Of a stretch of DNA of 64,000 bases, positions 14,399 through 58,487 are shown in pieces. Below the pieces are notes generated by a model. It had not been told where the DNA came from. It saw only the letters and a list, made by a program, of their open reading frames with translations, and did no database searches. Origin of the DNA: Pseudomonas purpurea (lineage in GTDB: Bacteria > Pseudomonadota > Gammaproteobacteria > Pseudomonadales > Pseudomonadaceae). How positions within the stretch are numbered: position 1 is the first letter of the stretch; every line of letters starts with the position of its first letter. The stretch is taken from contig NZ_CP150918.1 in NCBI RefSeq assembly GCF_039908635.1, forward strand, positions 4,542,001 to 4,606,000, given 5' to 3'. The translations under genes were made by a program, and so were the position numbers.

Positions 14399-15526
14399 GT
14401 GATCACCGCCCAAGCCTTTTCAACCATCGAGGCCATCGAACGCTGCGCCTGGAATGACTGCTTCCCCGCAGAGCTCGAGGACTGGGACTACTATCGGGCC
14501 GTTGAAAAGGCAGGGATCGCCGATTTCCAGTGGCGTTACCTGACGCTGGAAGAGGACGGTCGCGTGATCGCGGCCGCGGTGGCGTTCACCACCGTGTACT
14601 CGCTCGACACCACGGTTCAGGGGTTGGCCAAGCGGGTCACCGAACGGTTGCGCCGCTGGTTGCCGGGCCTGCTGGATATCCACCTGTATGCCCTCGGCTC
14701 ACCGGTTGCCGAGCAGTGCCACGTGGGCACGGCTCGCTCCGTGACCGAGGCGCAGCGCCCGGCGTTGCTGCGCCAGTTGCTGACGCTCGCCCGCAGTGAC
14801 GCCAACCAGGCGGGCATCGGCTTGCTGGCGGTCAAGGATGCACCCAGCAACGACCCACAATGGCTGGACGTCTGCCGTGAGGCCGGGTTGCAGGACATGC
14901 CCGGGCTGCCGAGCGCCGTGCTGCCCATCGCGTTCGGCTCTCTGGACGCGTACCTGGGCTCTCTGGGCAAATCAACCCGCAAGGACCTGCGCCGCAAACT
15001 CCGGGCCAAGGGTCCGCGCATCGAATGGCGACGTTCGGTGGATGACGTCCTGCCGACCATGATGCGCCTGTACGAAGCCACGCTGGCGCGCAGCGATCTG
15101 GAGTTCGAACGCCTGTCACCCGCGTACTTCACCAACATCCTCGAACACCTCGACGACCGCGCCGCGTGCGTGCTGTATTGGGTCGACGAGCAACTGGTGG
15201 CGTTCAACCTGGTGCTGCTCGACGAGCAGCGGCTGGTGGACAAATTTTTCGCCCACGACCTGGACCAGACCCGCGAGTACAACCTGTACTTCAGAAGCTG
15301 GCTGGCCAATGTCGACTACTGTATTGAGCATAAGATCCCGTTGTACGAGTGCGGCCAGGCCGGGTATGCCAGTAAGCTGCGGCTCGGTTGCTCGTTTGAA
15401 GGCAATACACTGTTCTTTCACCACCGCAACCGACTGCTCAACGCCCTGTTGAAAGTCGTCAAACTGTTTATCCGACCGGATCGATCCGACCCTGCCATGG
15501 CTGCTGCGATAAGCGAAACCCGATGA
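14399..15526 (+). CDS. FemAB/BioF2-like GNAT-fold transferase
   Basis: A 375-residue protein with GTG start at 14399, preceded by AAGGA (14388-14392). The central segment (LGSLGKSTRKDLRRKL) and the C-terminal region (DKFFAHDLDQTREYNLYF and LYECGQAGYASKLRLG) are typical of the large GNAT-fold family related to FemAB and acetyltransferase_6 proteins, which move aminoacyl or acyl groups onto amines. There is no membrane segment. It overlaps the following histidine kinase gene by 4 bp. In context it may acylate the amine installed by the aminotransferase. The acyl donor and acceptor are unknown. Confidence 0.75.
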   Translation: MITAQAFSTIEAIERCAWNDCFPAELEDWDYYRAVEKAGIADFQWRYLTLEEDGRVIAAAVAFTTVYSLDTTVQGLAKRVTERLRRWLPGLLDIHLYALGSPVAEQCHVGTARSVTEAQRPALLRQLLTLARSDANQAGIGLLAVKDAPSNDPQWLDVCREAGLQDMPGLPSAVLPIAFGSLDAYLGSLGKSTRKDLRRKLRAKGPRIEWRRSVDDVLPTMMRLYEATLARSDLEFERLSPAYFTNILEHLDDRAACVLYWVDEQLVAFNLVLLDEQRLVDKFFAHDLDQTREYNLYFRSWLANVDYCIEHKIPLYECGQAGYASKLRLGCSFEGNTLFFHHRNRLLNALLKVVKLFIRPDRSDPAMAAAISETR

Positions 15527-17295
15527 TCAGAGACCGCCGCCGTAAAGCCCGCCCCTTCGCCATCTCCCGCTGGAGCCTGCAACGCAAGCTGGTTCTGGCG
15601 TTCTGGCTGGTCAGCGTGATCCCGACCATGATCGCCGCCGAACTCGCGGCCACGACCCTGTCGCAGATTTTCGATAGCAACGTGCGGATCTGGTTGCAGG
15701 AGTCGACCAAAATCGTCGAAGACGAAATCACCGAAATCCTGCGCGACAACGCCCGAGTGGCGCAGTTGTTCCTGCGCTATACCCGCCCGCCCACCGACCA
15801 CTCCTCGACCAAGCACGACAAGCTGACCGCCGACATCGCCGATTCGATGGGCATCGATGTGGTGGCACTGGTGCGCATCAGCGACCGCAAAGTGGTGTTC
15901 AGCACGGCCGCCAATGACATCGTGCGGCAAATCAACACCGCGCCCAAAGCCGTATTGCAGACGCTGCAAGTCGGCGGCGTCGCCACCGGCACGGTGGTCT
16001 CGACCTTTGAGACAACCCAGGACGGTGTCGACTATCAACTGGTGATCGCCACTTACCTGGACAGCAGCTTCCTCACCAGCGTGGCCGAAGTGCACTCCCT
16101 GGACTTGCGCTTGTACCTGGCCAAGGCCGATGACTTCTCGGAGATTTTCTCCACCCAGCGCTTCGAGGATCACCCGCAACTGGTGCCGCACAAAATCGAA
16201 GAAATCCTGCGCAGCACCAAGGAACCCATCGAGCAATTCACCAACCGCTACAGCGGCATTTATCGACCGATCCTCAACGATAACGGTGAACTCCAGGGCG
16301 TGATTTTCAGCGGCCTGCTGCGCCACACCAGCCTTGTCGGGCTGGTCAACCAAAGCAGCCTGTTCGTGTTTATTTTCCTGCTCAGTTCCGCCGCTTCACT
16401 GTGCGTCGGCTGGCTGGTGTCCCAACGCCTGACGCGGCCCCTGCGCGGGCTGTCCAAAGGCGTACAAGCAGTGATTACAGGGGATTACCGCCAACGGGTG
16501 CCGGTTATCGGTGGCGATGAACTGGCCGAACTCAGCAGCACCTTCAACCACATGAGCCAACGTCTGGGCGAGTTGCAGCACCTGGAATCCCAACTGCGCC
16601 GTCGCGACCGTTTGCATGCCCTCGGTGAAGTCGCGATGGGCCTGGCCCATGAAATCCGCAACCCGCTGGGCATCATCAAAACCGCGACCCAACTGCTGCA
16701 CCGCCGCGCCGACCTGCCGGAGACCGATAAACGGCACCTGGAATACGTGGTCAGCGAAGTCAGCCGGATCAACGACCTGATCACCGATTTCCTCGACTTC
16801 GCCAAACCCAGCGCCCCGATGCGCGCCACCGTGCTGGCACGGCCGCTGGTGGATGAACTGATGGGCTTTTGCGCACCGGAACTGGCCACCCACAACATTG
16901 ATGCGCGGATCGAAGACAAGGCGCCCGGCGCAACCCTGCACGCCGACGCCCGCCAGCTCAAGCAGGCGTGCCTGAACCTGGTGCTCAACGCCATCGACGC
17001 CATGCCCGACGGCGGACGCCTGACCCTGGGCATCAGCAGCGACGACGAATACACCGTCATCAGCGTGTCCGACACCGGCCAGGGCATCGAATCGGACATG
17101 CTCGAACGCATCTTTACCCCGTTTGTCACCACCAAGGCTTCCGGTACGGGCCTGGGCCTGGCGAAAGTTTTCTCGATCATGGAAAACCATGACGGACGGG
17201 TCGAATGCGTCAGTGAAAAAGATGCCGGCGCCACGTTCAGCCTGTACATTCCCGCCAACGGTGAAGACGATGGCGAGGACGGCGATGACGCATAA
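15523..17295 (+). CDS. Membrane sensor histidine kinase of the aminotransferase operon
   Basis: A 590-residue sensor. The first transmembrane helix is near residues 24-46, followed by a Cache-like periplasmic domain of about 230 residues, a second transmembrane helix (SLFVFIFLLSSAASLCVGWLV-type segment near residues 280-302), a HAMP domain, a HisKA domain with His376 in GLAHEIRNPLGIIK and an ATPase domain (N box LNLVLNAIDAM, G1 SDTGQGI, G2 GTGLGLAKV). The acidic tail (EDDGEDGDD) overlaps the start of the regulator gene. It follows the biosynthetic genes in overlapping reading frames, so sensor and enzymes are one transcript. It probably detects a small extracellular ligand related to the substrate or product. 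Confidence 0.87.
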   Translation: MIRDRRRKARPFAISRWSLQRKLVLAFWLVSVIPTMIAAELAATTLSQIFDSNVRIWLQESTKIVEDEITEILRDNARVAQLFLRYTRPPTDHSSTKHDKLTADIADSMGIDVVALVRISDRKVVFSTAANDIVRQINTAPKAVLQTLQVGGVATGTVVSTFETTQDGVDYQLVIATYLDSSFLTSVAEVHSLDLRLYLAKADDFSEIFSTQRFEDHPQLVPHKIEEILRSTKEPIEQFTNRYSGIYRPILNDNGELQGVIFSGLLRHTSLVGLVNQSSLFVFIFLLSSAASLCVGWLVSQRLTRPLRGLSKGVQAVITGDYRQRVPVIGGDELAELSSTFNHMSQRLGELQHLESQLRRRDRLHALGEVAMGLAHEIRNPLGIIKTATQLLHRRADLPETDKRHLEYVVSEVSRINDLITDFLDFAKPSAPMRATVLARPLVDELMGFCAPELATHNIDARIEDKAPGATLHADARQLKQACLNLVLNAIDAMPDGGRLTLGISSDDEYTVISVSDTGQGIESDMLERIFTPFVTTKASGTGLGLAKVFSIMENHDGRVECVSEKDAGATFSLYIPANGEDDGEDGDDA

Positions 17296-18682
17296 CCTTC
17301 TGGTGGTGGACGACGAGCCCAAGCTCTGCGACCTGCTGGCCTCTGCCCTGGGCCAGAACGACATCCAGGTGTTTACCGCCGGCAACGGCCTGCATGCGCT
17401 CAAAGTGCTGGAGCAGGAAGACATCGACCTGGTCATCAGCGATTGGCGCATGCCCGGCATGGACGGGCCGCAGCTGCTGGCGGAAATCAAGGTGCGTTAC
17501 CCGCAACTGCCGGTGATCGTCATGACCGCCTACAGCACGGTGAAAAACGCCGTGCAGTCGATGCGCAACGGCGCTTTTGACTACATCGCCAAGCCGTTCG
17601 ACATCGACGAGCTGGACATCACGGTCAGCAAGGCCCTGCAATTTCGCGACATCCTCAAAGACAACCAGCGCATGCGCGCCGAACTCGACGAGCATCAGCA
17701 GATCGACAGCCTGGTGGGCGACAGCCCGACCTTCCGCCGGGTCCTGCAAGCGGTGGACTCGGTGCGTGAAAGCAACGCCACCATCCTGCTCACCGGCGAA
17801 AGCGGCACCGGCAAGGAAATGGTCGCCCGGGCCATCCACAAACACGGCAACCGCGCCGACAAACCGTTTGTCGCGGTGAACTGCGCGGCCATCCCGGAAG
17901 GCCTGCTGGAAAGCGAAATGTTCGGTCATCGCAAAGGCGCGTTCACCGGCGCCGTGGCTGACCGCGTGGGGCGCTTCATGCAGGCCGACAAGGGCACGCT
18001 GTTCCTCGACGAAGTCGGCGACATGCCGCTGGCCTTGCAGGCAAAAATCCTGCGGGCCTTGCAGGAACGGGTGATCGAGCCGGTGGGCGACCCGCGCGAG
18101 CGCAAGGTCGATGTGCGGGTCATCGCGGCCACCAACAAGAACCTGCTGGAAGCGGTGGCCAACAAGGAGTTTCGCGAGGACCTGTATTACCGCCTCAACG
18201 TGTTTCCGATTCCGCTGCCGGCCTTGCGCGAGCGAGCCGAAGACATCGCGCCGCTGGCCCGCCACTTCGCCCACACCCTGGGTGCCGAAGCCGGTAAACG
18301 CATCAATGGTTTCAGCCCGGAAGCCTTGCAGGCCATGGCCAACTATTCATGGCCGGGGAACATCCGCGAACTGCAAAATTGCGTCGAGCGCGCCACCATC
18401 GTCGCCTCGGGCAGCGTGATCGAAGAAGACGACCTGCCGGCCTATCTGTTCGCCTCACGGCCCAACGACGGCAGCGCCAGTGCGATCCTCAGCGACGGCA
18501 GCAGCGTACCCGCTGACCTGGATGCCGCACTGATGGAAGTCGAGAAGGCCTACATCCTTGCCGCGCTCCAGCAAAGCAATGGCGTACAAGCCGCTGCCGC
18601 ACAATTGATCGGCATCTCCGAGCGTAGTTTCTGGTATCGGCTGAAGAAGCTCGGGATCCATGTGGACAAAATCGTGCGCTGA
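17285..18682 (+). CDS. Sigma-54-dependent response regulator of the aminotransferase operon
   Basis: A 465-residue NtrC-type regulator. The receiver domain has VVDDEPK at the N-terminus and acceptor Asp in VISDWRMPG; the AAA+ domain has Walker A GESGTGKE, the intact sigma-54 contact loop GAFTGA, GTLFLDEVGD and the arginine-finger region; a Fis-type helix-turn-helix ends the protein (AAAQLIGISERSFWYRLKK). The start at 17285 overlaps the kinase gene by 11 bp. All domains look functional. With a sigma-54 promoter at 11335 in front of the first gene, the operon is likely to be autoregulated. I do not recognise a named orthologue. Confidence 0.87.
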   Translation: MTHNLLVVDDEPKLCDLLASALGQNDIQVFTAGNGLHALKVLEQEDIDLVISDWRMPGMDGPQLLAEIKVRYPQLPVIVMTAYSTVKNAVQSMRNGAFDYIAKPFDIDELDITVSKALQFRDILKDNQRMRAELDEHQQIDSLVGDSPTFRRVLQAVDSVRESNATILLTGESGTGKEMVARAIHKHGNRADKPFVAVNCAAIPEGLLESEMFGHRKGAFTGAVADRVGRFMQADKGTLFLDEVGDMPLALQAKILRALQERVIEPVGDPRERKVDVRVIAATNKNLLEAVANKEFREDLYYRLNVFPIPLPALRERAEDIAPLARHFAHTLGAEAGKRINGFSPEALQAMANYSWPGNIRELQNCVERATIVASGSVIEEDDLPAYLFASRPNDGSASAILSDGSSVPADLDAALMEVEKAYILAALQQSNGVQAAAAQLIGISERSFWYRLKKLGIHVDKIVR

Positions 18683-24774: not shown

Positions 24775-26130
24775 TCAGCCTGTTGCAGCGATGAACTCTT
24801 GTGGCTCCGGGATTTTTACAAAAACACTGTACTTGCCACCTTCCATGGCCTCGAAGGCAATGAGTTTTTCCACCAACGGCCCGCTCAACACCTTGCCGGC
24901 ATTGAGCAACAACATGCCATTGTCGGCATTCAGGTTGCGCGCCAGCACCATGCCCGCCGCCAGATCACGGGTGCCCATCACCTTCACGTTCGGGTCCGCC
25001 AGGGTGACATCGCTCAAGTACGCCGCACACACCTTGATGAAGTCTTCTACCAGGTCCGGATCGTAGAGTTTGCCGGTGTATTGGCGGATATAGACCAGCG
25101 CTTCATCGCTGTTCATCTGCCGTTCGAGGATCAAGCCGCGCTGCAATTCGATGAAGTCCACTGCCAGCTTCAACAACCGCGAGCCGAAGGGAATCGCCTC
25201 GCCCTTGAGGCGATCCGGAAAACCGCTGCCATCCCAGCGCTCCTGATGATGAAGGATCAGCCGCGCGGCATCCTTCATCGGGTCGAGGGTCATCAACAGC
25301 GACTCGCTCTGTTTCGGGTAACTGCGATAGCGCTCGCGGTCCGTGTGGTGCAGCAGGTCTGCGGGCGCCGTCATCATGCTGTCGGTCCAGCTCATCTTGC
25401 CAATGTTGTAGAGCGCGGCCGCCATGATCAGGTTGCGGCTGCTGACTTCGTCCAACTCATGGAGTTTGCAGTAAACCCGGATCAACTCGATGGTCTGCCG
25501 GCTGGTCTGCTTGGAGGGCGGCAGGCGCAGGTTGGCCAGCAGCGAGAACATCTCGGTGCCGGTGACATAGCTGTGCTTGAGCTCTTCGTATGCCAGGTCA
25601 AGCATGTCGGCGGTCTGTTGAAGCTCGGCCGTGCGCGCCAGCACGCGCTTTTCCAGGGACTCGTTGAGCATCTTCAACTGCTCGTTCTGATCCCAGGTCA
25701 CCTGCACCAGCCGTATCCGCTCGCGCTCGCAGTCCTGGTGAAACAAGGACTGGCGCAACGTCAGCAGCATCTCTTCGTCGCTCCAGGGTTTGCTGAGGTA
25801 ACGATCGATCTGCCCGTCATTGATGGCCTTGATAATCGTCGGCAGATCCGCATACCCCGTCAGCAGGATGCGGACCGTGTCGGGGTAGCGTTCATGGATA
25901 TGGGCCAGCAGGGTCGCACCGTCCATGTTGGGCATGCGTGCGTCGGTCATCACCAGGTCAACCGGCTGCTGCGCCATGATTTCCAGGGCCTGGGCGCCAC
26001 TGGTCGCCAGAACCACCTCATAGGGCTGGGTGCGCAACAAGCGGCGCAGGCTGTTGAGAATCGGTTCCTCGTCATCGACCAGCAGCACCCTGGGTTTACT
26101 GGCTTGGGTCATCGGGGGTTGCTCTTCCAT
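24775..26130 (-). CDS. Response regulator with degenerate HD-GYP output domain
   Basis: 451 residues: a receiver domain (VLLVDDEEP; acceptor Asp in LVMTDARMPNMDG; Lys in LSKPW), a coiled-coil linker (about residues 135-170), an HD-GYP-like domain and a C-terminal extension of about 90 residues (MGTRDLAAGMVLARNL). Active HD-GYP phosphodiesterases have LHDIGK; here it is LYNIGK, so both the His and Asp metal ligands are lost. The later HHQERWDGSGFP motif is kept. The protein probably binds c-di-GMP or a partner rather than hydrolysing it. It is divergent from the GGDEF-EAL cluster and likely belongs to the same signalling locus. Confidence 0.85.
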   Translation of the reverse strand: MEEQPPMTQASKPRVLLVDDEEPILNSLRRLLRTQPYEVVLATSGAQALEIMAQQPVDLVMTDARMPNMDGATLLAHIHERYPDTVRILLTGYADLPTIIKAINDGQIDRYLSKPWSDEEMLLTLRQSLFHQDCERERIRLVQVTWDQNEQLKMLNESLEKRVLARTAELQQTADMLDLAYEELKHSYVTGTEMFSLLANLRLPPSKQTSRQTIELIRVYCKLHELDEVSSRNLIMAAALYNIGKMSWTDSMMTAPADLLHHTDRERYRSYPKQSESLLMTLDPMKDAARLILHHQERWDGSGFPDRLKGEAIPFGSRLLKLAVDFIELQRGLILERQMNSDEALVYIRQYTGKLYDPDLVEDFIKVCAAYLSDVTLADPNVKVMGTRDLAAGMVLARNLNADNGMLLLNAGKVLSGPLVEKLIAFEAMEGGKYSVFVKIPEPQEFIAATG

Positions 26131-26347
26131 GGCGTCACCTCGCTTGAAACAGACACATGATCGCGTGCGCGCCCAGGAAACGTCCTCAATTCCCGGCGCT
26201 TGACCTACAGGCTAGATGATTTTTCGTGCCACTCCGAAGTGATTTGAGACACGCCGCCGGGCGAACTCAAAAGAGCACGGCTATGCTCAGTCAACACGGA
26301 TCCAGTGTCTGTACCCGCACTGTCAGGTGATCAGGAAGGGATGCCAC

Positions 26348-26392
26348 ATGAACACGACGTTATTGAACATCGGTAAGGGTGCAACCCGATGA
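26348..26392 (+). CDS. Possible 14-codon leader ORF before the REC-PAS-GGDEF-EAL gene
   Basis: ATG at 26348 preceded by AGGAAGGG (26333-26340) opens a frame MNTTLLNIGKGATR whose TGA overlaps the ATG of the next gene (ATGA at 26389-26392). The start spacing is good and the overlap suggests translational coupling. However, the next gene also has its own AAGGG, so this could be chance. No codon pattern typical of an attenuator peptide is visible. Confidence 0.35.
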   Translation: MNTTLLNIGKGATR

Positions 26393-28683
26393 AGACGCCG
26401 CTGGGCCAGGCCAACCGGCGGATCTTGATCGTCGACGATACGGCGTCGATCCATCAGGACTTTGGCAAGATCCTCGCCCCGCAGATCTTTGATGACGACG
26501 CACTGAGCAGCGCCGAAGAAGCCTTGTTCGGAGCCCCGGCGGCGGTTGCCCTGCAAGGTTTTGTGCTCGATTCCGCCTTTCAGGGCCTGGAAGCCCTGGC
26601 CAAGGTCGAAGCCGCCCTGGCCAAGGACCTGCCGTATGCCATGGCCTTCATTGATATGCGCATGCCGCCGGGCTGGGATGGCCTGGAAACCATCGAACGG
26701 CTGTGGCAGGTCGATCCCAAGCTGCAAGTTGCGCTCTGCACAGCCTATTCCGACTACTCCTGGGACGACATCGCCGAGCGCCTGGAGCTGGGCGATCGCC
26801 TGCTGATCCTGAAGAAACCCTTCGATGCCATCGAAATCCGCCAGATGGCCAGCGCCCTGACGGTCAAGTGGCAAATGACCGAAGACGCCGCGCTGAAGAT
26901 GAACCTGCTGGAGCAAGCTGTTGAAGAACGCACCCGCGAGCTGTCCGACGCCAACGTCATCGTCCAGAACAGCCCGACCATTTTGTACCGGCTGCGCGGC
27001 GAGCCGTCGTTTCCGCTGATGTACATCTCCCACAACATCACCAAGTTCGGCCACCTGGCGGCACACTTGGTGGCTTCGGCCAACTGGGCTCAAGAATTGA
27101 TTCACCCCGAGGACCAGGACAAGGTCGACGCGGCCATGGCGCGGGTGCTCGACCGGCATGCCGCCGGCGCGTCCATCGAGTTCCGCCTGCGAACCGGTGA
27201 TGGCGACTGGCGCTGGGTCGAAAACCGCTATGTCCCGGTGCGCGACCATGACGGTCGGCTGCTGGAGGTCGAAGGCATCATCATCGACATCACCGAACGC
27301 AAGCTGGCCGAAGAAAAAATCGCCCAACTGGCACGCACCGACGGGCTGACCGGCCTGGCCAACCGCGCCACCCTGATCGAACGGCTGCACCAGGCTTTCG
27401 CCGCGACCCGCCGTGGGGCAACACCCTTTGCAATCTTCTACCTGGACCTCGACCACTTCAAACGCATCAACGACACCCTGGGCCATCCCATCGGGGACTT
27501 GTTGTTGCAGGAAGTCGCCCGGCGCATCAAGGCCTGCGTGCGGGAAAACGACGTGGTGGCACGTTTGGGCGGTGACGAATTCGCGATCTTGCAACTGGAC
27601 ATCGGCGACCCGTCGCACTGTGCCTCCCTCGCCGCCAAGATTCGCGACAGGCTGGTGCTGCCCTACTCGCTGGACGGTAACAATGTGCGGGTCTCGGTCA
27701 GCATCGGCATCAGCACCTGCACCCAGGAAACCCCCAGTGCCGACACCCTGCTGACCCAGGCCGACATGGCGCTGTACCGTTCCAAGGAAAAGGGCCGCAA
27801 CCAGTACCACTTCCACTCCGAGGAGATCAATCAGGAAGTGGTCGACCGGATGACCATTGCCAATGACTTGAAACAGGCCCTGGAACTGGACGAGCTGGAG
27901 CTGCATTACTTGCCGGAAGTGGACCTGGGCACCGGCAGGATCCTCGGCATGCAAGCCCAGGTGCGCTGGAACCACCCGCAACGCGGCCTTCTTGAGGCGG
28001 ACACCTTCATGCCCGCGGCCGAAAAAACCGGCACCGTCATCGCCCTCGGGCACTGGTTGCTGGATCGCGCCTGCCAGCAAATGCGCCAATGGCGCGACCA
28101 GGGCATGTCGCCCCCGGTGATCGCCATCAAGCTGTCCCTGGCCCAGCTCAAAAGCGGTCCGGACCTGATTTATGACGTGCTGCGCACCACCGCTCGCTGG
28201 AACCTCTGCCCGTGGGACCTGCGCTTCGACGTCACCGAAGCCACGCTGGCGCAGACCAAATGGACCCACAACGATGTGCTGCCACGCTTGCGCGAGCTGG
28301 GAGTGAAAATCGCCATTGATGATTTCGGCACCGAATACTCCTCGTTCGACTACCTCAAGACCTACCGGGTCAATCACCTGAAAATCGCCCAGGCGTTCAT
28401 TGATAGCGCCAGCCGCGATGCGGCCAGTGCGACCACCCTGCGCGCCATCATCAACTTTGCCCGGGACGTGGGCATCGGCATCATCGCCGAGGGCGTCGAG
28501 ACACAGGAACAGCGCAGTTCGCTGATGTCCACCGGTTCACCCATGAACGCCCAGGGTTATTACTTCAGCAAAGCCGTCAGCAGTGAACAGGCCGCCGAGT
28601 TGTTGCAGGCCGGCAGTATCGTGCCCACCACTCTGCCGACCCCGACCGCGCAAGATCCGCCGCCCCCGGAGGCCACGCGATGA
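26389..28683 (+). CDS. REC-PAS-GGDEF-EAL protein, likely diguanylate cyclase with inactive EAL
   Basis: 764 residues. The receiver domain (residues 10-160) has acceptor Asp89 in AFIDMRMP, later than the usual position of about 54 because of an insert. A PAS domain follows (about 185-305). The GGDEF domain has intact GGDEF at 394-398, the metal Asp in YLDLDHFKRIND, and the inhibitory RxxD (RENDVV, 385-388), so cyclase activity is likely. In the EAL domain the namesake motif reads QAQ (522-524, in GMQAQVRW) and KID reads KIA, so phosphodiesterase activity is probably lost. It overlaps the next gene by 4 bp. It should make c-di-GMP under receiver control. Confidence 0.88.
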   Translation: MKTPLGQANRRILIVDDTASIHQDFGKILAPQIFDDDALSSAEEALFGAPAAVALQGFVLDSAFQGLEALAKVEAALAKDLPYAMAFIDMRMPPGWDGLETIERLWQVDPKLQVALCTAYSDYSWDDIAERLELGDRLLILKKPFDAIEIRQMASALTVKWQMTEDAALKMNLLEQAVEERTRELSDANVIVQNSPTILYRLRGEPSFPLMYISHNITKFGHLAAHLVASANWAQELIHPEDQDKVDAAMARVLDRHAAGASIEFRLRTGDGDWRWVENRYVPVRDHDGRLLEVEGIIIDITERKLAEEKIAQLARTDGLTGLANRATLIERLHQAFAATRRGATPFAIFYLDLDHFKRINDTLGHPIGDLLLQEVARRIKACVRENDVVARLGGDEFAILQLDIGDPSHCASLAAKIRDRLVLPYSLDGNNVRVSVSIGISTCTQETPSADTLLTQADMALYRSKEKGRNQYHFHSEEINQEVVDRMTIANDLKQALELDELELHYLPEVDLGTGRILGMQAQVRWNHPQRGLLEADTFMPAAEKTGTVIALGHWLLDRACQQMRQWRDQGMSPPVIAIKLSLAQLKSGPDLIYDVLRTTARWNLCPWDLRFDVTEATLAQTKWTHNDVLPRLRELGVKIAIDDFGTEYSSFDYLKTYRVNHLKIAQAFIDSASRDAASATTLRAIINFARDVGIGIIAEGVETQEQRSSLMSTGSPMNAQGYYFSKAVSSEQAAELLQAGSIVPTTLPTPTAQDPPPPEATR

Positions 28684-30554
28684 ACCCAGCGTTTGCCCAG
28701 ACCAACCGGCGCATCCTGATCATTGATGACACTCCTTCGATCCATCAGGACTTTCGCAAGATCCTGGGGCCCGATGCCCAGGGTGAAAGTGCCCTGGCCG
28801 ATACCGAGGCGTGCCTGTTCGGTACACCCCCCAAAAGCCGTCCAACCTTTGACCTCGACTCAGCCTATCAAGGCAAAGAGGCGCTGGACCTGGTCACCCG
28901 CGCCCAGGCGGAGGGCCGGCCTTATGCCCTGGCCTTCACGGACATGCGCATGCCACCTGGCTGGGATGGCCTGGAAACCATCGAGCGCTTGTGGAAAGTC
29001 GACCCAAACCTGCAAATCGCCTTGTGCACGGCATTTTCCGATTACTCCTGGGAAGCGATGGCCGAACGGCTGGAGTTCGGTGACCAGTTGCTGGTGCTGA
29101 AGAAGCCGTTCGACAGCCTGGAAATCCGTCAGATGGCCAGTGCCCTGACGTGGAAATGGCAGATGGCCCAGGACGCCGCCCTCAAGATGCTCAGCCTTGA
29201 GCGAACCATCGAGGAGCGCGTCCATGAGTTGCTCAAGGTCTCCCACCTGTTGCAGTACGACGTCCTCACCGAACTGCCCAACAGCACCTTGCTCGGTGAT
29301 CGCCTGAATCAGGCCCTGGCCCTTTCACGGCGCCATGACAAACAACTGGCGGTGATGTTTCTGGGCCTTGACCGCTTCAAGCGCATCAACAATGCCCTGG
29401 GCCACCCGACCGGCGATGAAATGCTCAAGCGCGTCGGCCAGAGCCTGGTGAGCAGCGTGCGCGAGTCCGACTCGGTGTTTCGCTACGGCGCGGACGAGTT
29501 CGTGGTGATCCTGGCCGACATCCACCACCCCCAGCAGACCAAAGGCGTCGCTGAAAAACTCCTGGCCGCGGTCAGCACACCCCAGCATATCGCCGGCCAT
29601 GACCTGCGCGTGACCGCCAGCCTGGGTATCAGCATCTACCCCGACGACGGCTTCGATGCCGTGGCGCTGATCAAAAAAGCCGAAACCGCGATGCGTAACG
29701 TCAAGGAAAGCGGCCCGAACGATTTCAGCTTCTTCATTGACGAAATGAACCTGCGCGCACGCCAACAACAAAGCATCGAATCGGGCATTCGCCTGGCCCT
29801 GGAGCGCAACGAATTTGTTCTGCATTACCAACCCAAACTTGACCTCAACAGCGGCCGAGTGGTCGGTGCCGAAGCGTTGATACGCTGGTTCAAGCCGGAT
29901 CATGGCTGGATCTACCCGTCGGACTTCATCGGCGTGGCTGAAGACAGCGGGTTGATCGTGCCCTTGAGCAAGTGGGTGCTGGGCCAGGCCTGTCGACAGG
30001 CCTGCGCCTGGCAAAAGGCGGGGCTGCCGGCGATCTGCATGTCGGTGAACGTGTCCGCCATCGACTTTCGCCAACGCGGTTTTGTTGACGGGATTGTGGA
30101 CATATTGCGCCAGACCGGGCTTGAACCGAGTTTGCTGGAACTGGAAATCACCGAAAGTGTGTTGATGCAAAGCATCGACACCACGGTCCTGATCCTGCAA
30201 GCCATCAAGGCCTTGGGCGTCAGGTTGGCCATTGATGACTTTGGCACGGGTTATTCGAGCCTGAGCTACTTGCGCAAATTCCCGGTGGACGTCCTGAAAA
30301 TCGATCAGTCGTTCGTGCGCGGCGTGAGCTACGACAGCAACGATGCAGCGCTGGTCAGCGCCATCATCAGCCTGGGCAAGAGCCTGCACCTGAACATCAT
30401 CGCCGAAGGCATCGAGACCCTTGAGCAACTGGACTTTCTCAAAGCCCACCAGTGCGAAGAAGGCCAGGGTTATTACTTCAGCAGAGCCGTGTCCCCCGAG
30501 GACTTCGCACACTTCCTGAAACCGGCAACGCCGTATCCATTAGCAGGTCAGTAG
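28680..30554 (+). CDS. REC-GGDEF-EAL protein, likely c-di-GMP phosphodiesterase with inactive GGDEF
   Basis: 624 residues with the same receiver type as the preceding gene (acceptor Asp88 in AFTDMRMP), but no PAS. The GGDEF motif reads GADEF (270-274) and the metal-binding Asp of FLDLDRFK is Gly (FLGLDRFK), so cyclase activity is unlikely; the RxxD site (261-264) is kept. The EAL domain is complete: EAL at 398-400 in GAEALIRW, SVNVSAIDF, ELEITESVL, IDDFGTGYSSLSYL, LKIDQSF and IAEGIETLEQ. It should degrade c-di-GMP. The pairing with the preceding cyclase-type gene, in overlapping frames, looks like division of a bifunctional ancestor. Confidence 0.88.
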   Translation: MNPAFAQTNRRILIIDDTPSIHQDFRKILGPDAQGESALADTEACLFGTPPKSRPTFDLDSAYQGKEALDLVTRAQAEGRPYALAFTDMRMPPGWDGLETIERLWKVDPNLQIALCTAFSDYSWEAMAERLEFGDQLLVLKKPFDSLEIRQMASALTWKWQMAQDAALKMLSLERTIEERVHELLKVSHLLQYDVLTELPNSTLLGDRLNQALALSRRHDKQLAVMFLGLDRFKRINNALGHPTGDEMLKRVGQSLVSSVRESDSVFRYGADEFVVILADIHHPQQTKGVAEKLLAAVSTPQHIAGHDLRVTASLGISIYPDDGFDAVALIKKAETAMRNVKESGPNDFSFFIDEMNLRARQQQSIESGIRLALERNEFVLHYQPKLDLNSGRVVGAEALIRWFKPDHGWIYPSDFIGVAEDSGLIVPLSKWVLGQACRQACAWQKAGLPAICMSVNVSAIDFRQRGFVDGIVDILRQTGLEPSLLELEITESVLMQSIDTTVLILQAIKALGVRLAIDDFGTGYSSLSYLRKFPVDVLKIDQSFVRGVSYDSNDAALVSAIISLGKSLHLNIIAEGIETLEQLDFLKAHQCEEGQGYYFSRAVSPEDFAHFLKPATPYPLAGQ

Positions 30555-30579
30555 CACTGCTGCGCCAAGGAGGCTTCTG

Positions 30580-31539
30580 ATGTGGCCACACGGACCGACC
30601 CTCGTCTTGCCCCTGCTGCTTGCGGCTGCCCTGGCTGCGAGCGCCGAGCCGCTGGATGAGCCGCTGAAACCCTTGCCACCGGTGCCAAAACAGGACCCGC
30701 AGCGCGTTGAGCTTGGCCGTCTGCTGTTCAACGAACCCCGTTTATCAGTCAACAACAGCCTGTCGTGCGCCAGCTGTCATCAGCTGGAAAAAGGCGGGGC
30801 CGACGACAAAGGGTTCTCCATCGGCGTCACTGGCACCCCCGTGGCGTTCAATACCCCAAGTGTGTTCAATGCCAGCCTTAATTTCCGGCAGTTCTGGGAT
30901 GGCCGCGCCGACACCCTGGAGGCGCAAGCCCACGAAGTGGTGCAAAACCCGAGCGAGATGGGCAGTCATTGGGAGCATGTCATTGAGACCCTCACCGCCG
31001 ACCCGGCCTATCAATCGGCGTTCGGCAAGGCCTACCCCGACGGGGTGACCACCACCAATGTGCAGGATGCACTGGCCACCTACGAACGCACGCTGCTGAG
31101 CAGCAACTCGCGTTTCGACCAATACCTGCTGGGCAATACCGACATCCTCGATATCGACGAGAAGTACGGTTACCAGCGCTTCAAGGACTACGGCTGTATC
31201 GCCTGCCATCAGGGCGTGAACATCGGCGGCAACATGTTCCAGAAGTTTGGTGTGATGGGCGATTACTTCCAGGCCCGGGGCAACCCGCTGGAGTCGGACC
31301 TGGGGCGCTACCTGGTGACCAAGGACGATGAGGACCGCTACGTGTTCAAGGTCCCCAGCCTGCGCAACGTCGCGGTGACCGCACCGTACTTTCACGACGC
31401 CTCGGCCAAGACCCTCGAAGAAGCCGTGGACATCATGTTCAAGTTTCAATTGGGGCGCGTGCCGTCGACCGACGACAAAACCCTGATCATCAAATTCCTC
31501 AAGACCCTGACCGGTGAATGGGGAGGCAAGCCGTTATGA
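30580..31539 (+). CDS. Di-haem cytochrome c peroxidase family protein
   Basis: 319 residues, exported (hydrophobic LVLPLLLAAALAASA after the start). Two haem c sites are visible, SCASCHQ and CIACHQG, plus the family segments RVELGRLLFNEPRLS and FKVPSLRNVAVTAPYFHDAS. Members reduce hydrogen peroxide with electrons from cytochrome c or azurin; MauG-like relatives oxidise other proteins. The start follows AAGGAGG. It begins 26 bases after the phosphodiesterase gene and overlaps the following kinase gene by 4 bp, which places a periplasmic redox enzyme inside a signalling operon. It may be an actuator, or it may pass a redox state to the adjacent sensor. Confidence 0.9.
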   Translation: MWPHGPTLVLPLLLAAALAASAEPLDEPLKPLPPVPKQDPQRVELGRLLFNEPRLSVNNSLSCASCHQLEKGGADDKGFSIGVTGTPVAFNTPSVFNASLNFRQFWDGRADTLEAQAHEVVQNPSEMGSHWEHVIETLTADPAYQSAFGKAYPDGVTTTNVQDALATYERTLLSSNSRFDQYLLGNTDILDIDEKYGYQRFKDYGCIACHQGVNIGGNMFQKFGVMGDYFQARGNPLESDLGRYLVTKDDEDRYVFKVPSLRNVAVTAPYFHDASAKTLEEAVDIMFKFQLGRVPSTDDKTLIIKFLKTLTGEWGGKPL

Positions 31540-33347
31540 CCGTCTCTCGCAACCTCAGCCTGGCCATCCTGGCAGGCATGGCCGCGCTCCTGGCCTCGAT
31601 CCTGCTGTTCCTGTATTTCATGTCCAGCTCCGACCAGACCACGACCTATACCGAATCACGGGACCTGATTCGCCAGATCAAACAACTGGACGCGCAATGG
31701 GAAGCTGAAATCCTCAAGGCCCGCATCGCCATCAGCCACAACTACGACCCGCTGGTTTCCCCCCTGACCGAAATGATCCGGTTGTGGGAACGGTTCGACA
31801 CGATGGAATCCAGCCATGGCCGCAACGACTCCGCACTGTGGGCAACCAGCCATGACGGTTACTTGAACGCCATCAAGGAAAAAACCCGGCTGGTGGAGCA
31901 GTTCAAATCCCACAACGCCGTGCTGCGCAACTCCCTGGCGTTTCTGCCGACCGCCGAAGACGACATCCAGAACCAGCTCGCCAACGTGAGCGACGAAGAC
32001 AAACTGCAACTGCAGAATATCGCCACCGACACCTATGACTTGCTGCTCAGCAGCCTGGAGTTTTCCCAGGTCACCACCGACGACAGGGCGGCGGACATTC
32101 TGGTGGGCCTGAACAAACTGGCGGTGAACCAGCAGCGGTTACCCGAACAATTCCATGGGCCGGTGGAGATTCTCAGCAACCACATCGCGTTGATCCTGCG
32201 CGAACAACCGATCGTCAACACGTTGCTGGAGAAGATCGAAACGATCCAGGTCGCCGAACGGCTGGACGACATCACGTCCCTGCTGAACAAGGATCAGCAG
32301 CTCAACGACGCGGTGAACCAGAAGTATCACTTCTACTTGCTGGTGTTCTCCACGCTGCTGGTGCTGTTACTGCTGTACCTGGCGATTCGCCTGATGCGCA
32401 GCTTCTCGGAGATCAATCGCGTCAACAAGGCCCTGCAAACCGCCAACGAAGAGCTTGAACAGCGGGTCGAAGAACGCACCCGGGAACTGCGCGATACCCA
32501 AAGCGAGCTGCTGGACACCGCGCGCATGGCGGGCATGGCCGAGATTGCCACCAACGTTTTGCACAATGTCGGCAACGTGCTCAACAGCGTGAACATTTCC
32601 GCCGACCTGGTGACCCGCAAGCTGCGCACCAGCAAGGCTCTCGGCCTGGGCAAGGCCATGCAACTGATCAACGAACACCCGCAAGACCTCGGGCACTTCA
32701 TCACCGAAGATGAAAAGGGCAAGTTGCTCCCCGGTTACCTGAATCAACTGGTGGACGCCATTGCACTCGAGCAGCAAGGCATCACCGATGAGCTGGCGCA
32801 GTTAAGCAAAAGCGTCGATCACATCAAGGACATCGTCGCCACGCAACAATCCTATGCCGGCGCCACCAGCCTGATGGAACCGCTGTACCTCAGCGAACTG
32901 CTTGAGGACGCCCTGCGCATGAACTCCGGCGCCCTGACCCGGCACCACGTCACGGTGGTCAAGGATTACAGTGACGTTCCGCAAGTGATGGGCGACAAAC
33001 ACCGGCTGCTACTGATCCTGATCAACCTGATCAGCAACGCCAAGTACGCCATGTCCGACCTCAGCGACCGTCCTCGGGAAATGACCCTGGGGGTCAAGGT
33101 CATCGACGCCACCACCCTGCAAGTCAGCGTCAAGGACGAAGGCGAAGGCATCGCCCCGGAGAACATGACGCGGATCTTTGCGCACGGCTTCACCACTCGC
33201 AAGGAAGGCCACGGCTTCGGCCTGCACAGTTGCGCCCTGGCCGCGATCGAAATGAACGGCCACCTCACCGCCCACAGTGACGGGCCGGGCAAAGGCGCGC
33301 TGTTCACCTTGCAAATCCCCTTGAAAACCGTGGCAGGTGAAGCATGA
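31536..33347 (+). CDS. Membrane histidine kinase with all-helical periplasmic domain
   Basis: 603 residues. The first transmembrane helix (LAILAGMAALLASILLFLYF) is followed by an entirely alpha-helical periplasmic region of about 230 residues, which resembles the DAHL type of sensor, a second transmembrane helix near residues 264-286, a coiled coil, and the kinase core. The phospho-acceptor region is TNVLHNVGNVLNSV with His343, a variant HN-x-GN box rather than HE-x-x-P. The ATPase domain has LINLISNAKYAM and DEGEGI, and FGLHSC replaces the usual GLGL. The ATG at 31536 overlaps the peroxidase stop. It probably senses a periplasmic cue linked to the peroxidase and signals to the three receiver proteins nearby. 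Confidence 0.85.
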   Translation: MTVSRNLSLAILAGMAALLASILLFLYFMSSSDQTTTYTESRDLIRQIKQLDAQWEAEILKARIAISHNYDPLVSPLTEMIRLWERFDTMESSHGRNDSALWATSHDGYLNAIKEKTRLVEQFKSHNAVLRNSLAFLPTAEDDIQNQLANVSDEDKLQLQNIATDTYDLLLSSLEFSQVTTDDRAADILVGLNKLAVNQQRLPEQFHGPVEILSNHIALILREQPIVNTLLEKIETIQVAERLDDITSLLNKDQQLNDAVNQKYHFYLLVFSTLLVLLLLYLAIRLMRSFSEINRVNKALQTANEELEQRVEERTRELRDTQSELLDTARMAGMAEIATNVLHNVGNVLNSVNISADLVTRKLRTSKALGLGKAMQLINEHPQDLGHFITEDEKGKLLPGYLNQLVDAIALEQQGITDELAQLSKSVDHIKDIVATQQSYAGATSLMEPLYLSELLEDALRMNSGALTRHHVTVVKDYSDVPQVMGDKHRLLLILINLISNAKYAMSDLSDRPREMTLGVKVIDATTLQVSVKDEGEGIAPENMTRIFAHGFTTRKEGHGFGLHSCALAAIEMNGHLTAHSDGPGKGALFTLQIPLKTVAGEA

Positions 33348-34750
33348 GCACCCCGCCGAACCGGCGCATACTGTTGATCGACGACACCCCGTCGATACAT
33401 GAGGACTTTCGCAAGATCCTGACGCCCGAAGCGCAGCACACTGCCGAGCTGGACGACATGGAGGCCGCGTTGTTCGGCAGCGAGGCCAAACCCGCGGCAA
33501 CGCTGTTTGAACTGGACTCGGCTTATGGTGGCCAGGAAGGCTTGAGTAAACTGCTGCAAGCCATGGAGGAGCAACGCCCCTACGCACTGGCCTTCGTCGA
33601 TATGCGCATGCCCCAAGGCTGGGACGGCGCCGAAACCATCGAGCACTTGTGGAAAGAAGACCCGCGCCTGCAAGTGGTGGTCTGCACTGCCTACTCCGAC
33701 CACTCATGGGACGAACTGCTGGAGCGCTTGCAGGCCCGTGACCGTCTGTTGATTCTGAAAAAGCCCTTCGACAACATCGAAGTCCAGCAAATGGCCAACA
33801 CCCTGACGTCCAAGTGGGACATGACCCAACGCGCCAGCGTGCAACTGGACCAATTGGGCCACCTGGTGGAGCGCCGGACCCAGCAATACCGGCAGGCGAG
33901 CGTCGATCTGCAACAGGAAATCGATGAGCGCAAACTGCTCGAAAGCCAACTGGTGCAGTCGGAAAAACTTGCCTCCCTGGGCCAACTCGCGGCCGGGGTT
34001 GCCCATGAAATCAACAACCCCATTGGCTTCATTTCCTCCAACCTCGGCGCGCTGGACGGCTACTTCAAGCAACTGCAGGAAATGCTCGACGCCTACCTGG
34101 ACGCCGAGGAAGCCATCGGTTCGAGTGAGCTGATCGCACGCCTGAAAGCGTTGCGTGAGCGGATCGAGCTGGACTTCCTGCGCGACGACATTCCGCAGTT
34201 GATCAAGGAGTCCAAGGACGGCATCGCCCGGGTCGGGCAAATCGTCAAGGACCTCAAGGATTTTTCCAGGGTGGACCCCACGCAGGAATGGCAGTGGGCC
34301 AACCTGCAACACGGCATCGACTCGACGCTGAACATCGTCGCCAATGAAATCAAGTACAAGGCCGATGTGGTCAAGCTGTACCAGCCCCTCCCGGACGTCG
34401 AATGCCTGCCCTCGCAAATCAATCAGGTGGTCATGAACCTCATCGTCAACGCCGCCCAGGCCATAGGGCCCGAGCGCGGCACCATTACCTTGAGCAACGG
34501 GCTTGAAGGGGAAAAGGTCTGGATAGAAGTCGCTGACACCGGTTCAGGCATCGAGCCGCACAGTTTGCAGAAAATCTTCGACCCGTTTTTCACCACCAAA
34601 CCGGTGGGCCAGGGCACCGGTCTTGGCCTGTCGCTGTCGTACGGCATCGTGAAAAAGCATCGTGGCGAGATTTCGGTGCGCAGTGAGGTCGGGGTGGGGA
34701 CAACGTTTCGGATTGAACTGCCGCTGCGACAATCAAAACCCGCGGCTTGA
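33344..34750 (+). CDS. Receiver-histidine kinase protein (REC first)
   Basis: 468 residues: an N-terminal receiver (ILLIDDTPSIHEDF; acceptor Asp86 in AFVDMRMP), a coiled coil (about 165-205), then HisKA with His221 in GVAHEINNPIGF and an ATPase domain (LIVNAAQAIG, DTGSGI, GTGLGLSLSYG). It has no transmembrane segment. The receiver is the same unusual type as in the two upstream GGDEF-EAL proteins, with about 30 extra residues before the acceptor Asp. A cytoplasmic REC-kinase after a membrane kinase suggests a phosphorelay in which this protein is activated by the upstream sensor and then phosphorylates further partners. It overlaps the preceding gene by 4 bp. Confidence 0.87.
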   Translation: MSTPPNRRILLIDDTPSIHEDFRKILTPEAQHTAELDDMEAALFGSEAKPAATLFELDSAYGGQEGLSKLLQAMEEQRPYALAFVDMRMPQGWDGAETIEHLWKEDPRLQVVVCTAYSDHSWDELLERLQARDRLLILKKPFDNIEVQQMANTLTSKWDMTQRASVQLDQLGHLVERRTQQYRQASVDLQQEIDERKLLESQLVQSEKLASLGQLAAGVAHEINNPIGFISSNLGALDGYFKQLQEMLDAYLDAEEAIGSSELIARLKALRERIELDFLRDDIPQLIKESKDGIARVGQIVKDLKDFSRVDPTQEWQWANLQHGIDSTLNIVANEIKYKADVVKLYQPLPDVECLPSQINQVVMNLIVNAAQAIGPERGTITLSNGLEGEKVWIEVADTGSGIEPHSLQKIFDPFFTTKPVGQGTGLGLSLSYGIVKKHRGEISVRSEVGVGTTFRIELPLRQSKPAA

Positions 34751-34893
34751 CCAGCGGCGAAAGCGGCGTCGGGTTCAGTGCCGCGGTTGCCCACGGCAGG
34801 CAGAGTGATTGCCCGCGCAGTCACGGTGCGCCAGTATGTGCGCCTGCAACCGGCCAGCGCGTGACGCGGCCAAGTCATCCGACAGGGCTGGAT

Positions 34894-35688
34894 ATGACGC
34901 ACTCGCTGCAAGACATCGCCTGGCATCGCTCGGTCGGGCAACTGATCGACGCGCTGGATAAACCCGTCTTCTGGACCCGACTGGTGCGTCAGTTGGGTCA
35001 GTACGTGACCTTCGACAGCTGGGTCGCCCTGCTTTTCAATGGCGAACAAGCGCCCCTGGTGTTTGCCGAATGCCCGAGTGAAGACGGCCGCCCCGACCTG
35101 CTGTTCCAGGATTACCTCAAGGGCCTGTTCCTGCTCGACCCGTTCTACCTCAATTGCCGCGAGCACACGCGCACCGGGCTCTATCGCCTGGCCGACGTGG
35201 CGCCGGAGCATTTCGAGCAAACCGAGTATTACCAGCGCTACTTTCGTCTGAATGTGGTGGCCGACGAAATCCAGTTCAATTGTCTGCTCGAAGGCGAACG
35301 CATCCTGTGCCTGTCGCTGGGCAGCAAACAACACTTTGACCCCGAGCAGATGGCGCTGCTGTCGCTGATCGAGCCCTGGGTGTTGAGCCTGATGCGTCAG
35401 CGCCTTGCCCATGACCTGCGCGAAATGCCCGTGCAAACCGCCCCGGACATCGACTGGCGGGCCCGGCTGGTGGCCTCGGTGCAGCAACTCAACGGCGTGC
35501 AACTGACCGCCCGCGAACTGGATGTCGGGCGCCTGATGCTCGGCGGTTGCTCCAGCAAGGACATCGCTCGTAAGCTGCAAATCTCTGTTGAAACCGTGAA
35601 AGTCCATAAGAAACACATCTACAGCAAGCTAGGGATCAAATCCCAGGCCGAGCTGTTTTCGATCTTTCTCCAGGCACAAAATGCCTGA
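34894..35688 (+). CDS. LuxR-type transcription regulator
   Basis: A 264-residue protein. The C-terminal helix-turn-helix is LTARELDVGRLMLGGCSSKD followed by IARKLQISVETVKVHKKHIY, a typical LuxR/GerE domain. The N-terminal 190 residues are not a receiver or a recognised acyl-homoserine-lactone domain; they resemble the uncharacterised N-terminal domain seen in many orphan LuxR regulators. The start at 34894 (MTHSLQDIAWH) is preferred; the longer frame upstream has an atypical composition. It lies 143 bases after the REC-kinase gene on the same strand and may be the transcription output of that locus, or an independent gene. Confidence 0.82.
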   Translation: MTHSLQDIAWHRSVGQLIDALDKPVFWTRLVRQLGQYVTFDSWVALLFNGEQAPLVFAECPSEDGRPDLLFQDYLKGLFLLDPFYLNCREHTRTGLYRLADVAPEHFEQTEYYQRYFRLNVVADEIQFNCLLEGERILCLSLGSKQHFDPEQMALLSLIEPWVLSLMRQRLAHDLREMPVQTAPDIDWRARLVASVQQLNGVQLTARELDVGRLMLGGCSSKDIARKLQISVETVKVHKKHIYSKLGIKSQAELFSIFLQAQNA

Positions 35689-35861: not shown

Positions 35862-35915
35862 GAAACCTGTATGCCACTGCCCTACATTTACCGAGTCCGA
35901 ACCCAAGGAAACCGT

Positions 35916-37532
35916 ATGAGCCTGTCCCTCCTGAGCCGCTACGCCTTCTTTGCCGTCTGCGTGATATTTACCCTCGCCAGCCTGCCGTTTCTTGAACATG
36001 ACTGGCTCTGGCCGATCAGCATCGTCACCGGCCTGCTGAGCCTGCTGGGCATTTTCGACCTGCTGCAAAGCCCCCACGCGGTGCGCCGCAACTACCCGAT
36101 CCTGGGCAACATCCGCTACCTGGTAGAAGGCATCCGCCCGGAAATCCGCCAGTACCTGCTCGAATCCGACAGCGACGCCCTGCCCTTCTCCCGCGCCCAG
36201 CGCTCGCTGGTTTACTCGCGAGCCAAAAATGAAAGCGCCGACAAACCCTTCGGCACGCTGATCGACGTGTACCAGTCGGGCTTCGAATTCATCGGCCACT
36301 CCATGCGCCCGGCGCCGTTGAGCGACCCGAGCGGCTTTCGGGTGATTGTCGGCGGTCCGCAGTGCACCCAGCCGTATTCGGCGTCGGTGTTCAACATCTC
36401 GGCGATGAGTTTTGGTTCGCTGAGCGCCAACGCCATTCGCGCGCTGAACCAGGGCGCCAAACTCGGCAATTTCGCCCACGACACCGGCGAAGGCAGCATC
36501 AGCCCCTATCACCGTGAACACGGTGGCGACCTGACCTGGGAACTGGGCAGCGGGTACTTCGGCTGCCGCACCGCTGACGGCCGGTTCGACCCGGAACGCT
36601 TCGCCGCCCAGGCACAGACCCCACAAGTGCGGATGATCGAAATCAAAATGAGCCAGGGCGCCAAGCCCGGCCACGGTGGCATCCTGCCCAAACACAAGGT
36701 GACCAAGGAAATCGCGCAAACACGCGGCATCATGATGGGCGAAGACTGCGTGTCGCCGTCGCGGCACAGCGCGTTTTCCACGCCCATCGAGATGATGCAC
36801 TTCATCAAGCAACTGCGTGAGCTGTCGGGCGGTAAACCGGTGGGCTTCAAATTCTGCCTGGGCCACCCGTGGGAGTTCATGGGCATCGCCAAGGCCATGC
36901 TGGAAACCGGCATCCTGCCGGACTTCATCGTGGTCGATGGCAAGGAAGGCGGGACCGGCGCCGCGCCCGTGGAGTTCACCGACCACATTGGCGTGCCGAT
37001 GCGCGAAGGGCTGCTGTTCGTGCACAACACCCTGGTGGGCCTGAACCTGCGGGACAAAATCAAACTCGGCGCCAGCGGCAAGATTGTCAGCGCCTTCGAC
37101 ATCGCCAGCGTCCTGGCCATCGGCGCCGACTGGGCCAACTCGGCTCGCGGTTTCATGTTCGCCATCGGCTGTATCCAGTCGCAGAGCTGCCACACCAACA
37201 AGTGCCCGACCGGCGTCGCCACCCAGGACACCCTGCGCCAGCGTGCCCTGGTGGTGCCGGACAAAGCCCAGCGGGTGTTCAATTTCCACCGCAGCACCCT
37301 CAAGGCCCTCGCCGAAATGCTCGCCGCCGCCGGCCTCGAACACCCCTCGCAGTTGTCGGCCAAACACCTGGTACGGCGCATGTCGGCGACCGAAATCAAA
37401 CTGTTCTCGCAGTTGCATGTGTTCCTCAAACCCGGCGAATTGCTGACCGGCGAAGTCAACGGCGAGTTCTATTCGCGGATGTGGCAGATGGCACGGGCCG
37501 ACAGCTTCGAGCCCAATGACGTCGCCGCCTGA
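35916..37532 (+). CDS. FMN-binding glutamate-synthase-like protein
   Basis: 538 residues. After a start with good ribosome site (AAGGAAACCGT ATG) come two hydrophobic helices (YAFFAVCVIFTLASLPFL and a second to about residue 50), then a domain like the FMN barrel of the glutamate synthase large subunit: SAMSFGSLS, HRTGEGS-type region read here as DTGEGSISPYH, EIKMSQGAKPGHGG, GKEGGTGAAP, and a Cys cluster CIQSQSCHTNKCPTGVA resembling the [3Fe-4S] site. It lacks the amidotransferase domain, so it is not a complete glutamate synthase. Such stand-alone proteins are common in Pseudomonas and their reaction is not established. A membrane anchor is likely. Confidence 0.85.
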   Translation: MSLSLLSRYAFFAVCVIFTLASLPFLEHDWLWPISIVTGLLSLLGIFDLLQSPHAVRRNYPILGNIRYLVEGIRPEIRQYLLESDSDALPFSRAQRSLVYSRAKNESADKPFGTLIDVYQSGFEFIGHSMRPAPLSDPSGFRVIVGGPQCTQPYSASVFNISAMSFGSLSANAIRALNQGAKLGNFAHDTGEGSISPYHREHGGDLTWELGSGYFGCRTADGRFDPERFAAQAQTPQVRMIEIKMSQGAKPGHGGILPKHKVTKEIAQTRGIMMGEDCVSPSRHSAFSTPIEMMHFIKQLRELSGGKPVGFKFCLGHPWEFMGIAKAMLETGILPDFIVVDGKEGGTGAAPVEFTDHIGVPMREGLLFVHNTLVGLNLRDKIKLGASGKIVSAFDIASVLAIGADWANSARGFMFAIGCIQSQSCHTNKCPTGVATQDTLRQRALVVPDKAQRVFNFHRSTLKALAEMLAAAGLEHPSQLSAKHLVRRMSATEIKLFSQLHVFLKPGELLTGEVNGEFYSRMWQMARADSFEPNDVAA

Positions 37533-58459: not shown

Positions 58460-58472
58460 GAACTGAATACTC

Positions 58473-58487
58473 AAGTTTCGGAAACTT
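58473..58487. promoter_or_regulatory. Perfect 7-1-7 palindrome just before the usher gene
   Basis: AAGTTTC-G-GAAACTT lies 14 bases upstream of the preferred usher ATG. It could be a small RNA hairpin that hides the translation start, or an operator. Function is inference. Confidence 0.5.

Follow-up and report, generated by a model that had tools for sequence, protein, structure and literature searches.

A di-haem peroxidase gene paired with DAHL receptor genes in Pseudomonas and other Proteobacteria: a candidate periplasmic co-sensor

Why does a gene for a di-haem cytochrome c peroxidase (CCP) stand among genes for cyclic di-GMP (c-di-GMP) turnover and histidine kinases in Pseudomonas purpurea? 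The question is raised by positions 24775-34750 of a 64,000-nucleotide stretch of contig NZ_CP150918.1, which is referred to here as the window. The genes, order, strands and overlaps in this region were confirmed by open reading frames and Pfam domains, which bore out the domains, 4-bp overlaps and single 25-base gap recorded in a first-pass annotation of the DNA. That annotation regarded the peroxidase, two GGDEF-EAL proteins, a membrane kinase and a soluble kinase as a composite system, an interpretation that overall is partly supported: the peroxidase and the sensor domain of the membrane kinase behave as a unit, but one that can do without the second kinase and both GGDEF-EAL genes. The sensor domain itself, which is a DAHL domain (PF19443), had been overlooked. 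On the basis of sequence comparisons, the peroxidase and the DAHL receptor probably work together across the inner membrane as a two-protein sensor, with the peroxidase as co-sensor.

Conservation of the peroxidase-DAHL pair

The sensor region of the membrane kinase matched PF19443 with an E-value of 1.6e-49 (169 bits, cut-off 38), and the peroxidase matched PF03150 with an E-value of 5.9e-57 (192.9 bits, cut-off 25.6). The peroxidase has a hydrophobic leader at the N-terminus as read from the sequence, possesses the haem motifs CASCH at residue 63 and CIACH at residue 206, and aligned with solved CCPs with a best E-value of 3e-76. The equivalog cut-offs for MauG and MbnH were missed (TIGR04039, 182.5 against 362.85 bits; TIGR03791, 144 against 443.85 bits). 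The catalytic and ligand residues E126, Q116 and M286 are present, which we take to be the equivalents of E114, Q104 and M275 in the P. aeruginosa CCP numbering that is used below.

The association between the two genes was assessed in three samples, all within the phylum of the window. Among 119 Pseudomonas genomes, 59 had a CCP match and 49 a DAHL kinase match, one of which (G050) spans the kinase domain only. A close CCP (at least 58% identity) was present in 48 genomes and was accompanied in all 48 by a DAHL kinase within 2 kb, whereas no DAHL kinase match was found in the 11 Pseudomonas genomes with only distant CCPs. A PF19443 profile search of 370 gammaproteobacterial genomes yielded matches in 62, over cut-off in 53. 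The surroundings of all 63 over-cut-off DAHL hits besides that of the window were retrieved, and a CCP gene was located directly upstream on the same strand in 58, the order being CCP then DAHL in every pair. Spacing ranged from -62 to +15 in 56 pairs, with a value of -4 in 42 of these; the remaining two pairs showed a gap of 71 and an overlap of 11. As CCP genes occur in 216 of the 370 genomes with no more than 11 matches in each, chance adjacency is estimated to be rare. In a phylum sample of 348 genomes, some of which are common to the other samples, 37 were over cut-off; the CCP gene was directly upstream of DAHL in all 29 loci inspected from the 53 non-self over-cut-off hits. The first-pass annotation had staked its proposal on the peroxidase being conserved with the signalling genes across related genomes, and such conservation was apparent at each of the three depths.

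The reverse comparison also was performed with a profile of 16 DAHL-linked CCPs run on the class sample, with coordinates compared by eye. Forty-five of the 50 best-scoring CCPs adjoined a DAHL hit. Among the other five, one was next to a truncated DAHL frame, one was beside a DAHL frame that ended at a contig edge, and one was itself broken and near an EAL frame. The co-occurrence counts demonstrate that the association at the locus exceeds chance. The parts found downstream of DAHL in the class were GGDEF-EAL, GGDEF, kinase and kinase-receiver. Overall, the peroxidase-DAHL pair is a conserved unit of which the Pseudomonas operon is one variant.

Linked peroxidases and the proposed co-sensor

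A tree was built with 128 CCP sequences, comprising 97 linked to DAHL, including a split-frame CCP (L120) and a CCP cut by a contig end (L123), and 31 unlinked sequences, most of them top-ranking PF03150 hits or Pseudomonas sequences. The linked or unlinked label required a single change on this tree, compared to a mean of 28.1 when labels were shuffled (0 of 500 shuffles as low), although the branch parting the two groups was not strong with a Shimodaira-Hasegawa-like approximate likelihood ratio test (SH-aLRT) value of 85. Output type, by comparison, required 13 changes among the 62 typed rows, with the pair itself kept together. Both CXXCH motifs are retained in the linked CCPs, with the first site gapped in one or two rows, as are the tryptophan between the haems (96/97) and the methionine ligand (91/97). 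Glu114 is present in 72 of 97 linked but 30 of 31 unlinked CCPs, and Gln104 in 83 of 97 and 31 of 31, respectively. Conversely, residue 218 is asparagine in all 97 linked and in 3 of 31 unlinked CCPs, and residue 211 is glutamine in 89 of 97 linked CCPs but not once among the 28 residues listed for unlinked CCPs; residue 131 is tryptophan in 85 of 97 linked CCPs. Q211 and N218 fall within the second haem motif or immediately behind it, and W131 follows the catalytic glutamate. If the peroxidase has a face for docking or signalling, these three residues are the likeliest candidates for it. Loss of the distal histidine of the peroxidatic haem, presumably His71 in P. aeruginosa, was considered as a marker because, among linked CCPs, only 1 of 56 from the class and 0 of 25 from Pseudomonas had the histidine, compared with 4 of 4 unlinked CCPs, but was rejected when the unlinked set of the tree had the histidine in only 7 of 31 cases against 1 of 97 linked CCPs. 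A GGDEF gene lies ~275 bases upstream of an unlinked CCP gene (L190/L265).

Paralogues were compared in six genomes with several pairs, amounting to 13 copies. In nine copies, both proteins were more distant from the paralogue in the same genome than from a copy elsewhere. Two copies in G406 tied on DAHL, L142 was closer to its paralogue for both proteins, and L147 for DAHL only. Lost catalytic residues in CCP were not coupled convincingly to lost residues in DAHL, the best p-value of 0.011 in eight uncorrected tests being too weak.

The proposed mechanism builds on gene order, overlap, conservation and the state of motifs. A periplasmic oxidant would react with the peroxidase or set its redox poise, with hydrogen peroxide as the first candidate ligand and another haem ligand, such as nitric oxide (NO), also possible. 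The helical DAHL domain would read the state of the peroxidase, most simply by docking in the manner of TorT on TorS, and the DAHL protein would relay the signal to whichever output it is fused. The DAHL model showed the helical two-module sensor fold that is found in TorS, and TorS was its closest match, in a tie with McpS. TorS binds a periplasmic protein, whereas McpS binds small ligands.

Several observations weigh against a co-sensor role. TorS-like bundles also take small ligands directly, as does McpS, which ties with TorS. No fusion between CCP and DAHL was noted in the loci read, and two of the 50 CCPs in the reverse comparison stand alone. The catalytic set of E114, Q104 and M275 is intact in 69 of 97 linked CCPs, which may therefore act as enzymes. 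Distances for CCP and DAHL correlated across the 56 class pairs (rho 0.51; maximum of 500 permutations 0.23), which favors the pairing, but this correlation is uncorrected for species phylogeny and nearest neighbors agreed in only 25 of 56 cases. Moreover, DAHL genes without CCP exist: five of the 63 over-cut-off class genes (two in G440 and one each in G324, G291 and G170; loci L133, L150, L159 and L160), four sub-cut-off class kinases which receiver proteins adjoin (L164-L167), and five betaproteobacterial systems (L212-L216). A second DAHL kinase is located away from CCP in 13 Pseudomonas genomes, all among the 48 that bear the locus, and CCP was the immediate neighbor in none of the 11 copies retrieved (L052-L061, L070); this second kinase may share the one peroxidase. 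The lack of CCP at L164-L167 and L212-L216 gives DAHL a peroxidase-free branch, and all these cases together indicate that the domain is able to act without an adjacent CCP. A 17-row DAHL alignment contained no word conserved enough for scanning. A smaller alignment led to 15 named loci, ten with CCP, of which five match contigs of the class sample in length and are not independent, and five of the betaproteobacterial type without CCP. In L212 (6761-10200), the gene after the peroxidase-free DAHL kinase encodes a fusion of a Ser/Thr protein kinase with a receiver domain.

The peroxidase might instead act purely as an enzyme, making or removing a small molecule, either peroxide or an oxidized product of the MauG type, which the DAHL domain binds without any contact between the two proteins. 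Such enzyme-coupled sensing is possible but unlikely: 28 of the 97 linked CCPs, a gapped row included, lack one or more of E114, Q104 and M275 yet still precede DAHL, nearly all with both CXXCH motifs, and Asn218, for which we know of no catalytic role, is invariant in the linked group. The same residue losses fit sensing better than detoxification, which bears on a further and improbable explanation in which the CCP is merely a detoxifying enzyme co-transcribed with its own regulator and thus an output of the system. The peroxidase looks standard by family and the copy in the window retains its catalytic residues as this would entail, but the neighbor in many lineages is a DAHL-GGDEF-EAL protein in which no DNA-binding part was seen, the 58 class pairs keep the peroxidase first, and the unlinked CCPs, 25 of 31 of which retain the catalytic set, group apart on the tree.

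It is more doubtful still that the five-gene Pseudomonas operon is the conserved system and that the link with DAHL elsewhere is secondary. Synteny is strong across many Pseudomonas. However, in 25 Pseudomonas loci that were read, both GGDEF-EAL genes were present in 14, only the second in six, only the first in one, and neither in four; no REC kinase was seen in three of these loci (L050, L051 and L063). Outside the genus, the constant recurring part is CCP with DAHL. A peroxidase that serves as the sensing partner of the DAHL receptor is the preferred reading here. It is finely balanced whether such pairs represent a class of two-part receptors widespread among Proteobacteria, in which a c-type di-haem peroxidase has come to serve DAHL receptors as their sensing subunit in the periplasm. 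If true, the pair would provide an output-independent, modular readout of periplasmic peroxide, NO or respiratory redox into c-di-GMP and phosphorelays.

Signal output and related systems

Pairwise identity among the receiver (REC) domains of the soluble kinase and both GGDEF-EAL proteins is 58-67%, with 58-59% between that of the soluble kinase and those of the GGDEF-EAL proteins. The REC domain of the divergent HD-GYP protein is only 27-31% identical to these three. The GGDEF motif and RxxD site of the REC-PAS-GGDEF-EAL protein are intact in 15 of 15 sequences and the EAL letters are kept in four of 15. In the REC-GGDEF-EAL protein, the EAL letters are intact and the GGDEF letters are changed in all 20 sequences. 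The DAHL kinase would pass phosphate to the three similar REC domains, namely those of the second kinase, the cyclase and the phosphodiesterase. With one cyclase site and one phosphodiesterase site intact, a single kinase could drive the two enzymes in opposite directions, such that one signal would set c-di-GMP through an antagonistic pair, and a regulator resembling HnoD is encoded beside them.

The HD-GYP protein belongs to the NosR family (NF053512, 574.8 bits, cut-off 400). In all 23 aligned sequences, YN or HN stands in place of the metal-binding HD motif, and the motif of an active phosphodiesterase is lacking. HnoD reportedly has no phosphodiesterase activity and suppresses HnoB by direct contact (PMC6335343), and the degenerate HD-GYP protein may act likewise on the phosphodiesterase of the locus. 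A NosR-family HD-GYP gene was within 7.5 kb of CCP in 45 of 48 Pseudomonas loci, and the family was present in 46 of 48 locus-bearing compared to 14 of 71 other Pseudomonas genomes (Fisher p 7e-18, which is no strict probability as the genomes are related). In the phylum sample, an HD-GYP frame precedes CCP in seven of 29 loci. Together with the fusion of GGDEF/EAL domains to DAHL in many lineages, these data uphold the earlier proposal of a link to c-di-GMP. The P. purpurea genome, searched as a single 5.93-Mb contig, encodes one NosR-family regulator over cut-off, but contained no NahK over cut-off and no match to FIST (PF08495) or HNOB (PF07700). As the known NO sensors of such networks are absent from the genome, the CCP-DAHL pair may take their place.

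The coupling of a periplasmic protein to a helical sensor kinase resembles TorT-TorS. TorT has a binding-protein fold, whereas the partner here is a di-haem peroxidase, the outputs include GGDEF/EAL domains, and DAHL is a separate Pfam family. VirA, which works with periplasmic ChvE, is a further comparison: the DAHL kinase matched the VirA-like family (NF010411) in two stretches, the best at residues 15-295, but the total of 142.5 bits is far under the cut-off of 647. The linked CCPs share with CcpA/CcpR, MauG and MbnH the PF03150 fold, two CXXCH motifs, the tryptophan between the haems and the methionine ligand, but form a separate branch marked by N218, Q211 and W131 and are encoded before a receptor gene. 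The H-NOX/HnoK/HnoB/HnoD network of Shewanella oneidensis and the NosP/NahK/NarR network also use a separate sensor that acts on a kinase or GGDEF-EAL protein, and include a receiver-phosphodiesterase and a degenerate HD-GYP regulator (PMC6335343, PMC8846402); the HD-GYP protein here is of the NosR family. The sensor proposed here differs from theirs in being a c-type di-haem protein of the periplasm. The kinase, too, differs in that it is transmembrane, and the genome is without an HNOB or FIST match.

The DAHL domain is hardly described in the literature that was searched. Among titles and abstract openings, a set outside which the original DAHL description fell, none connected a di-haem peroxidase with DAHL or with c-di-GMP sensing. 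The terms peroxid- and cytochrome c were not matched in a term search of a 2022 census of c-di-GMP inputs (PMC8846402), and di-haem or cytochrome c peroxidases are mentioned without a sensor role in passages of PMC3770913 and PMC2996986. Tlp10 of Campylobacter jejuni is named in one paper as a carrier of a double all-helical domain. To the known helical receptors coupled to periplasmic proteins, the pair would add one with an enzyme-fold haem protein as the partner. The pairing gives the DAHL domain a likely partner and hence a testable signal, and a group of peroxidases can be viewed as probable sensor subunits. Measuring a single complex, in any one species, would inform dozens of systems that differ in their wiring. 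If the proposal is true, the pair would do in the periplasm what the H-NOX and NosP systems do in the cytoplasm.

Features of the locus and window

Table 1. Genes of the peroxidase-DAHL locus in the window
Feature	Positions	Strand	Basis and remarks
REC-HD-GYP response regulator, NosR family, HD motif degenerate	24775..26130	-	Divergent; Pfam, NCBIfam NF053512
REC-PAS-GGDEF-EAL, likely diguanylate cyclase, EAL mostly degenerate	26389..28683	+	Pfam, motif reading
REC-GGDEF-EAL, likely phosphodiesterase, GGDEF degenerate	28680..30554	+	Pfam, motif reading
Di-haem cytochrome c peroxidase family protein (CCP_MauG), probably periplasmic, proposed co-sensor	30580..31539	+	PF03150
Membrane histidine kinase, DAHL sensor domain	31536..33347	+	Start ATG 31536
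Soluble REC-HisKA-HATPase kinase	33344..34750	+	Pfam; 4-bp overlap with DAHL kinase

The frames of the two GGDEF-EAL genes overlap by 4 bp, and the 25-base gap separates the end of the second from the start of CCP (Table 1). The overlap between CCP and the DAHL kinase is 4 bp when counted from the tabulated ATG; the longest kinase frame begins at 31518. The best 120 relatives listed for the DAHL kinase were mostly 77-82% identical over the searched region and included P. frederiksbergensis, P. mandelii and P. brassicacearum. A LuxR gene which the first-pass annotation placed at the flank of the locus overlaps the REC kinase by 4 bp only if TTG 34747 is the start, and a codon-usage gene caller set the start at 34861. 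LuxR did not directly follow the last kinase in any of 24 Pseudomonas loci of relatives read for its position, and was recognized in eight of them beyond two opposite-strand genes. Its membership of the operon was ruled out by these positions.

Other features of the window also were noted. The gene at 35871-37532 showed a partial match to the glutamate synthase large subunit (126.5 bits, below cut-off), and a similar gene was near the locus in 15 of 20 relatives (L032-L051). At 15523-18682, the gene for a HAMP histidine kinase precedes one for a sigma-54 response regulator. The region at 46932-52077 specifies a ToxA_N protein (131.8 bits) and then an LRR/NEL E3-ligase-like protein (172.3 bits), which are toxin- or effector-like, and a CS1-type pilus usher-like protein with CooC_C and TcfC domains is encoded at 55913-58474.
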